Of a DNA stretch of 64,000 bases, positions 24,462-53,247 are shown piece after piece; within the stretch, counting starts at the first letter, position 1; each line of letters opens with the position of its first letter. Source of the stretch: Promethearchaeota archaeon (GTDB lineage Archaea; Asgardarchaeota; Lokiarchaeia; Sigyniarchaeales; Promethearchaeaceae); assembly GCA_016933055.1 (NCBI GenBank), contig JAFGBS010000002.1:124001-188000 (forward strand), in the 5' to 3' direction. The translations under genes were made by a program, and so were the position numbers. The notes below the pieces were generated by a model that saw only the letters and a program-made list of their open reading frames with translations, did not search any database and was not told where the DNA came from.

Positions 24462-25898
24462 ATGGTAGAAATGAGCGAAGAGTACAATTACTTATTCAAA
24501 AACATCGTTGTTGGTGATGGAGGATGTGGAAAAACTGCAATTGTCGTTAGATTTTCACAAGGATATTTCCTCGAACAATATAAATTAACTATTGGAGTCG
24601 AATTTGCAGTTAAAACTATCATCATAAAAGACGGAATTAAAGTAAAACTTCAAATCTGGGATACCGGTGGGCAAGAACGTTTCCAGTATGTTCGACCTTT
24701 ATACTATCGTGGAGCCATGGGAGCAATATTACTATTTGATCTCACCAACCGTGAAACCTTTGATCATATCCCAAAATGGATTGAAGAAGTGAAGAATAAT
24801 GCAGGAGAAATTCCGATGCTTCTTGTTGGAAACAAATCAGATTTAATAAACGAACGCTCTGTATCCCGAGAAGAAGCCGAATCTTTTGCACGAGAATTTC
24901 AATTATACTACATTGAAAGCTCTGCTAAGGATGGTACCGGTGTAGGGGATGTATTTGCTATTCTATCTTGTTTAATGGTTGGTACCCCCGTTCCTGATGA
25001 ATATTTACAAGGTACCATTTTAACTGATAAAACGGGAAAAATCATGGGAAAACCAGCTCCAACTCCAGCTCCAACTCCAGCTCCAACTCCAGCTCCAACT
25101 CCAGCATTCAAAATGACTGAACCAGAACCAATGGAATTCGTAAAAATTCCGACTCCTCATCCAAAGCAAGACTTAGATATACCTACCGTACCGCAAAAGA
25201 CAGAGGAATGGAATGTTCCTCCCAAGCCAATAAGTCAACCTAAACCCACAGCTCAAGAAATCTCTACCTCAATGGATGAGATTGAAGCATCTATACCACC
25301 TGTTCCAAAGAAAACAACATCTATGGACTCTGGACCGATTGTTTTTGATACATCCCTCACCTCCAAACCCAGCGAAAAGGTTTCTGCTCCTCCTCCGATG
25401 GTCTTCCAACCAAAACCAGAGGAATCAGAGACCATACCTGAGAAAACCCCATGGAAACCAAGTCCGAGAATATTTCCGAATGCGAAACCCGCCTCTGCGC
25501 CTAGTAGTTTTAAAGCAAAACCCACAACTACTATAGAGAAAAGTCCCTTTACGGGAGAAACTGGTTTAGAACAAGTATCAAGTACAAAAGCTATTGATAA
25601 CCTACTAGGAGCGCTTTCTTCAAAACCATCATCCCCAACTACTACTACACCGTTATTTGGTGGTTCAACATCATTCAAGAAAACCTCGAAACCATCGATG
25701 TTTATCCCCGAAGTTAAAGTAGAACCAAAAGAAGAGGAGAACGTCAAAGAAGAGGAACAAGCAATGAAGAAAAAGGAACGAAAACTAAGGGGAAAGAAGA
25801 AACAAAAAAGTAGTATAGTGATTTGTAGCACTTGCGGGGCTATTTTAAGTGCAAGCTATAAATTCTGTAACAAATGCGGGTCACCTGTAAACAAATAA
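24462..25898 (+). CDS. Rab-like small GTPase with long Pro/Thr-rich tail and C-terminal zinc ribbon
   Basis: G1 GDGGCGKTAIV, G2 TIGVEF, G3 WDTGGQERF, G4 GNKSD, G5 SSAKD; APTPAPTPAPTPAPT linker; CSTCGAILSASYKFCNKCGSP. Confidence 0.93.
   Translation: MVEMSEEYNYLFKNIVVGDGGCGKTAIVVRFSQGYFLEQYKLTIGVEFAVKTIIIKDGIKVKLQIWDTGGQERFQYVRPLYYRGAMGAILLFDLTNRETFDHIPKWIEEVKNNAGEIPMLLVGNKSDLINERSVSREEAESFAREFQLYYIESSAKDGTGVGDVFAILSCLMVGTPVPDEYLQGTILTDKTGKIMGKPAPTPAPTPAPTPAPTPAFKMTEPEPMEFVKIPTPHPKQDLDIPTVPQKTEEWNVPPKPISQPKPTAQEISTSMDEIEASIPPVPKKTTSMDSGPIVFDTSLTSKPSEKVSAPPPMVFQPKPEESETIPEKTPWKPSPRIFPNAKPASAPSSFKAKPTTTIEKSPFTGETGLEQVSSTKAIDNLLGALSSKPSSPTTTTPLFGGSTSFKKTSKPSMFIPEVKVEPKEEENVKEEEQAMKKKERKLRGKKKQKSSIVICSTCGAILSASYKFCNKCGSPVNK
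25053..25100 (+). repeat. Four perfect tandem copies of a 12-bp unit (ccagctccaact) encoding PAPT in the Rab-like gene
   Basis: Read directly; a partial fifth copy (ccagc) follows. Confidence 0.95.
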
Positions 25899-52655: not shown

Positions 52656-52722
52656 GATCAATTGCATAAGATCCCAATAAGAGATATTAGGACCTTTGCA
52701 ATACTTACATTATAATGGGGGT

Positions 52723-53247
52723 GTGAACACAATAACCAGCAGTTATAAAGTTAAAGTGTTGTTATGTGGTCCTGCGGGATCGGGGAAGGAAAAACTCATA
52801 AATCGTTTTGTAAAGTCAAGGTTTCAAACTGATTACAAACTCACGGTTGGTGTTGACATTCTGACGAAAGATGTGGAATTACCAAATGATCAAATTTGTA
52901 CTCTTAGCATATGGGATATTGGTAATCAGGAACGATTCTCATTTGTACGATCCACCTTCTATAAGGGTGCTGCTGGGGCAATATTAGTGTTTGATTCAAG
53001 CTGTGCTAAAACATACGATGAAATCAAACAATGGAGAGCAGAGGTGAAAAAGTTTGCGGGAGATATTCCATTCGTACTAGTTGGAAATCACTTGGAACGA
53101 TTACCAGACGAAGGAGGGGGAATAGATCGTAATAAATGCAAGGAGTATGCAGAAAATCAAGGATCTATCTATATTGAAACTTCCGAGATTGATAGTTTCA
53201 ATATTGATGAAGTTTTTACTGCACTAGCAAAGCGAATCGTGGGGTAA
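52723..53247 (+). CDS. Rab-like small GTPase homologue with degenerate nucleotide-binding motifs
   Basis: GPAGSGKEKLI (G1), LTVGVDI, WDIGNQERFSFVRSTFYKGAAGAILVFD (G3 region), VGNHLER (G4 position), IETSEID (G5 position). GTG at 52723 seems likelier than the TTG at 52696. Confidence 0.85.
   Translation: MNTITSSYKVKVLLCGPAGSGKEKLINRFVKSRFQTDYKLTVGVDILTKDVELPNDQICTLSIWDIGNQERFSFVRSTFYKGAAGAILVFDSSCAKTYDEIKQWRAEVKKFAGDIPFVLVGNHLERLPDEGGGIDRNKCKEYAENQGSIYIETSEIDSFNIDEVFTALAKRIVG

Follow-up and report, generated by a model that had tools for sequence, protein, structure and literature searches.

Asgard archaea encode dozens of Rab-like GTPases. The Thorarchaeota Rab (PDB 7EZB; PMC10933270) binds and hydrolyses GTP. 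Pseudo-GTPases, in contrast, have the GTPase fold and lack at least one G motif, and those of class (i), such as p190RhoGAP pG1/pG2, CENP-M and the fungal dynein LIC, are expected not to bind nucleotide (PMC5593906). No archaeal or Asgard pseudo-GTPase was found in the literature searched, which was mostly that outside subscription journals. The window studied here is a stretch of 64,000 nucleotides (G000:C28:124001-188000) from a Promethearchaeota archaeon, a Lokiarchaeon whose metagenome-assembled genome (MAG; G000) has 3.76 Mb in 36 contigs. The gene at 52723-53247 (+) of the window encodes a Rab-like protein of 174 aa that, judged from its sequence, is a pseudo-GTPase by the definition above. 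In sequence, four of the five G-motif regions of its nucleotide pocket are broken, and its switch surface is kept under strong purifying selection.

The window protein resembles the class (i) proteins in having the fold without the G motifs, and its own membership of that class is an expectation drawn from the motifs. The p190 pseudo-GTPases are domains of a larger protein, whereas the window protein is a stand-alone archaeal Rab-like paralogue that keeps its switch surface. The pseudoRabs known so far come from Entamoeba. Two of them, EhRabX10 and EhRabX3 (PMC8514894), are also Rab-type proteins with several altered G motifs, but they are eukaryotic, and EhRabX10 has lost the G2/switch I motif that the window protein retains in full. 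Septin pseudo-GTPases (PMC10731463) show repeated independent losses within one family, and some of them have pocket substitutions, as in the archaeal copies described below. Unlike the latter, septins are filament subunits, many of them still bind GTP, and they belong to a different GTPase family. The Thorarchaeota Rab shares the Asgard Rab-like fold and is among the top structural and sequence matches of the window protein, which is not expected to bind and hydrolyse GTP as that protein does. What appears to be new is the combination of a lost pocket and a partner face kept in full, which evolved repeatedly from a single parent in archaea.

The window protein has a Ras-superfamily G domain (Pfam PF00071 Ras, E value 1.1e-35; Roc, E value 5.6e-28), and its translation contains the motifs GPAGSGKEKL, YKLTVGVD, WDIGNQERF, GNHLER and ETSEID. 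The original prediction listed G1, G4 and G5 as broken, and all three lesions are present on the + strand: the P-loop GPAGSGKE (52768-52791) has Glu for Ser/Thr at the Ras Ser17 position, G4 is NHLE instead of NKLD (NKxD; 53086-53097), and G5 is TSE instead of TSA, with SAK becoming SEI (53179-53187). The list was incomplete, having overlooked the G3 glycine (Ras Gly60), which is Asn in DIGNQ (52924-52926, +) in the translation and family alignment. The changed positions, in Ras numbers, are therefore Ser17, Gly60, Lys117, Asp119 and Ala146; the switch I Thr (T35), Asp57 and Gln61 are unchanged. All five lost positions are invariant across 54 intact members of the family, so the lesions are not due to chance.

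The fold itself appears to be retained, as had been predicted. An AlphaFold2 model based on a five-sequence alignment has a Rab fold at modest confidence (predicted local distance difference test, pLDDT, 71; predicted template modelling score, pTM, 0.74) and is closest to Rab7, Rab5 and the Thorarchaeota Rab, but it is silent on nucleotide binding because the P-loop and switch loops have pLDDT < 50. The best PDB matches by sequence are Rab11, Rab1, Rab7 and the Thorarchaeota Rab. Read by eye, RabF1-F5 and the switch surface are Rab-like (VGVDI, TLSIW, RFSFV, FYKGA and LVFDSS), with RabF5 the farthest from the consensus. The protein lacks the intact nucleotide-binding motifs of a canonical Rab. 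It has no C-terminal cysteine of the kind that is prenylated in canonical eukaryotic Rabs, its translation ending in ...AKRIVG, and Pfam finds no roadblock or longin domain, the 174 aa being a G domain only; the C-terminal roadblock domain expected of a Rag-type heterodimer subunit is thus missing.

The nearest relative of the window gene is an intact paralogue in the same genome (G000:C22:51264-51776), 75% identical over the tblastn match and 76% over a 166-residue core, with the motifs GVGKTS, DIGGQE, NKLD and TSAK. The gene had originally been related to the Rab-like protein at 24462; this kinship holds (~38% identity), but the closest relative and the relevant active partner is rather the 76% identical paralogue. 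The intact Rab-like GTPase, here and in a sister species (AMARA_1, SDNX01000013.1), is like the window protein in its fold, its length and an identical switch I and interswitch, but it has complete G1-G5 motifs (GKT, DIGGQ, NKLD, TSAK) and its gene often has RACo (reductive activator of corrinoid proteins) upstream of it.

The window gene (L001) and the intact paralogue (L002) were compared. Synonymous sites are saturated, the proportion of synonymous differences (pS) being 0.78 overall and 0.98 in the switch segment, and the nonsynonymous divergence (dN) is 0.17. In the stretch made up of switch I and interswitch (FQTDYKLTVGVDILTKDVELPNDQICTLSIWDI, 52822-52920, +), which runs up to the beginning of switch II, 33/33 residues are identical, and switch II (QERFSFVRSTFYKG, 52927-52968, +) matches the paralogue at 13/14 residues. 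There are 40 differences in the 166 core sites, and the probability that none would fall in the 33 switch sites is 3e-5 under even placement. Zero switch changes occurred in 0/10,000 draws weighted by site variability among intact members (7.2 expected), and none of 182 intact pairs of equal background divergence has as few. The pocket shows the opposite trend, with 6 changes against 1.9 expected (p 0.003). The full-length frame is retained despite synonymous saturation, relative both to the parent and to the orthologue, and the window gene evolves faster than its parent. The saturated synonymous sites together with the identical switch and interswitch argue that this is not a decaying pseudogene, and the protein is, by these substitution patterns, under purifying selection that is strongest on the partner face. 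Gene conversion was ruled out as the source of the identical switch, since the synonymous sites there are saturated.

G000 encodes dozens of Ras-family domains. Among its best 30 Ras-family matches, of which 28 cover the whole G1 region, G1 is broken only in the window gene and in a third copy (C16:238541), which is 51% identical and also degenerate (GEKT, DIGSSS, NHME). Two atypical Ras-family proteins of other families are also present, one lacking the G4 motif (L122, G000:C6:167871-168356) and one with the broken P-loop GGCVGRQRT (L020, G000:C17:38543-38899). All three loci of the GTPase family are present in AMARA_1 (Candidatus Lokiarchaeota), a congener or sister species of G000, and each of the three pairs is syntenic; the third locus is broken in both species. 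At the window locus both species have the order MFS transporter, DUF120 protein, GNAT, GTPase and GyrI-like protein. Orthologues with an intact site would have spoken against the original prediction, but the syntenic AMARA_1 orthologue is itself broken (GSGKRG with GKR, DIGGQE, NNLD, TSPK). Its G1, G4 and G5 are hit at the same positions with different replacement residues, indicating that the loss had started by the time the two species split, or shortly afterwards, and then advanced further in the window species. Together with the motif lesions, the broken orthologue supports the predicted breakage of the GTP/Mg2+ site.

The GTPase family was found by a profile search in 68 of 79 genomes of the order, and, at a stricter cut-off, four genomes from elsewhere in the class, outside this order, gave no match. 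A typical genome has one intact copy, and the 54 intact copies keep every scored G-motif residue. Two intact-type parent genes are interrupted by inserts of about 30 bases (L174 ~1204-1233, G022:C134; L076 ~430-460, G032:C9) that have in-frame stop codons and a 6-bp hairpin and lie at two different positions; candidate readings are mini-introns, translational bypass elements and assembly artefacts. Looking more widely for orthologues, as originally proposed, revealed many further copies with broken motifs. Defined by two or more G-motif lesions, pseudo copies number 21 in 17 genomes, 15 of which also have an intact copy, and the two kinds of copy are unlinked. RACo lies upstream of 28/44 intact loci with enough sequence versus 0/18 pseudo loci, indicating that the intact copy is ancestral and the pseudo copy a duplicate. 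RACo is on the same strand as the intact GTPase (L063, L060 and L069 are examples), an adjacency hinting at a functional link with it.

A single ancient pseudo lineage is rejected on the full tree, where monophyly of all pseudo copies has an approximately unbiased test value (p-AU) of 3e-49. Since gene conversion could mimic repeated origin, a second tree was made from the alignment minus the middle segment, which is prone to it. The full tree implies 9 changes to the pseudo state and the reduced tree, with few columns and weak support, implies 6, so the pseudo copies appear to have arisen about 6-9 times. One pseudo clade covers at least two genera (g7 and g11) and has syntenic members in G018, G063 and G070. 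A probable gene conversion from an intact paralogue into a pseudo copy is seen in L070 (G001:C66), where codons ~30-115, a tract spanning the switch region, have a synonymous divergence (dS) to the intact paralogue of 0.46 versus 1.5 elsewhere. Members of the family also occur in larger contexts. The 1615-aa leucine-rich-repeat protein L175:6447-11297 (G011:C186) has two Ras-domain matches, and the Ras domain at its C terminus belongs to the family but is degenerate (GASAVGSS, DIGSQ). L176:3927-5024 (G011:C65) is a 364-aa protein with two degenerate G domains in tandem, and L179:5659-7069 (G052:C48) contains a pseudo copy that closely follows a different small GTPase gene, which is intact and has the same orientation.

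The losses follow a pattern. Across the 21 pseudo copies, G15, S17, G60, K117, D119 and A146 are lost in 76/126 cells, versus 6/126 for G10, K16, T35, D57, Q61 and N116; Lys16 is kept in 19/21, Asp57 in 21/21, Thr35 in 20/21 and Asn116 in 20/21. The Fisher value for hit versus spared positions, 7e-23, is overstated because the grouping was set after the counts had been seen and the sequences share ancestry, but separate lineages show the pattern again. Pocket divergence is 0.45 in the pseudo copies versus 0.12 in intact pairs of comparable divergence, a figure that is partly circular since these copies were picked by their pocket lesions. Free of that circularity, switch I and interswitch divergence is 0.12 versus 0.28. 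The same type of protein arose repeatedly from one parent, and the losses fell on a common set of six positions.

The hit positions recall well-studied Ras mutants. G15A and D119N Ras are dominant-negative, K117N and A146T Ras are fast-exchange mutants, and K16 and D57 mutants can also be dominant-negative. S17N Ras, the classical dominant negative, sequesters upstream activators (PMC5293191); it binds guanine nucleotide exchange factors (GEFs) but is not activated, and in G60A Ras the change that GTP induces is perturbed (PMC3036621). Several of the hit positions coincide with those of dominant-negative or fast-exchange mutants, an analogy that is incomplete because K16 and D57 are kept in the pseudo copies. 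The face kept in the pseudo copies corresponds to the regulator-binding one of Rabs, whose RabF and switch residues bind GEFs and other regulators (PMC4915359).

These features suggest that the window protein acts as a poorly nucleotide-bound mimic of the conserved intact Rab-like GTPase and occupies its parent's partners, a reading to which we give an even chance. Duplication of the intact GTPase, the copy usually adjoining RACo, would have yielded a stand-alone protein that binds guanine nucleotide poorly, if at all, and stays empty or inactive in form. It would then occupy a partner of the parent, most likely an exchange factor or another switch-binding regulator, and the active paralogue would be damped or tuned, as by dominant-negative Ras mutants. 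The decoy or partner role proposed originally fits the way in which switch I, the interswitch and switch II have been selectively retained. The more specific form, in which Lokiarchaea repeatedly evolve natural dominant-negative Rab-like proteins that have lost nucleotide affinity at those positions where mutation turns laboratory Ras dominant-negative or fast-exchanging, kept the regulator face and hold the exchange factor, is considered less likely than not.

Several observations weigh against such a mimic. We know of no exchange factor for the parent GTPase in Asgard archaea. Retention of the P-loop Lys16 and of Asp57 and Asn116 leaves room for weak or altered binding of nucleotide. G033 and G070 have pseudo copies, yet the cut-off applied finds no intact one in either; this is ill-suited to a decoy unless these MAGs are incomplete. 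Switch conservation is no better than in intact pairs in L166, L003 and L075, and not clearly better in L160. Some pseudo copies may be dying, L173 having an in-frame TGA and L092 no standard start. The window gene itself has ATA (52732-52734) where the intact copies have ATG, and the standard start codon closest to it is a GTG (52723); translation may begin at the ATA, which has a Shine-Dalgarno-like GGGGGTG (52717-52723, +) 8 bases 5' of it. The AMARA_1 orthologue has TTG at this position, preceded by GGGGAGTG. Comparison with AMARA_1 revealed no conserved operon partner for the window gene; the upstream membrane protein and the downstream gene, considered for this role, are not shared with the sister locus.

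Altered nucleotide use is an unlikely but serious alternative. Here the protein would still bind nucleotide, with altered specificity or in a locked state like Rnd proteins or septins, and would be a constitutive or differently gated switch. The P-loop Lys and Asn116 would hold the nucleotide, and guanine selectivity (Asp119/Lys117) and Mg2+ binding (Ser17) would be changed. The near-constant retention of Lys16, Asp57, Thr35 and Asn116 in the pseudo copies is consistent with this, Rnd proteins bind without hydrolysing (PMC5593906), and for septin class I pseudo-GTPases it has been argued that they are either empty or carry a different small molecule (PMC10731463). However, charged or bulky residues recur at Ser17 (E, K, R, N, D), as do E, D or a gap at Gly15, and these should keep out Mg2+ and phosphate; loss of Gly60 should block the GTP switch, and the replacement residues share no common pattern that would suggest a new ligand.

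A structural role without titration of a regulator, with the protein serving as a septin- or Rag-like subunit that combines with the active paralogue, or with some larger protein, into a hetero-dimer or scaffold, is rather improbable. Kept switch surfaces can serve as dimer faces, Asgard Rag-like pairs are predicted hetero-dimers (PMC10933270), and the tandem fusion L176, the leucine-rich-repeat protein L175 and the neighbouring GTPase genes of L179 would suit this role. The window gene, however, is a stand-alone gene and none of its immediate neighbours is conserved, pseudo copies are not linked to intact ones, and the protein lacks the roadblock and longin domains.

Decay of a duplicate without function is very improbable. 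The weak start codon (ATA or GTG), the faster evolution and the stop in L173 are what it would lead one to expect, but it is ruled out for the window gene by the saturation of synonymous sites with frame and switch kept; the losses are also non-random over the pocket, and syntenic pseudo orthologues are retained in two and in three species. A sequencing or assembly artefact, conceivable because the data are a MAG, is refuted by the syntenic broken orthologue in the independent MAG AMARA_1 and by 15 further genomes with pseudo copies.

The reading as a mimic of the parent GTPase has consequences for the family. Dropping the nucleotide site and fully keeping switch I and interswitch would mean that the surface itself is worth keeping, i.e. 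that partners exist, and the window protein may therefore be a natural bait for finding partners of Asgard Rab-like GTPases. When Asgard GTPases are counted, proteins that probably do not act as switches are included. The finding also bears on whether the Asgard Rab-like GTPases take part in regulated circuits that include exchange factors and effectors. If the dominant-negative form of the proposal is true, a regulated GEF-GTPase circuit with evolved inhibitors would be present in the archaeal relatives of eukaryotes.
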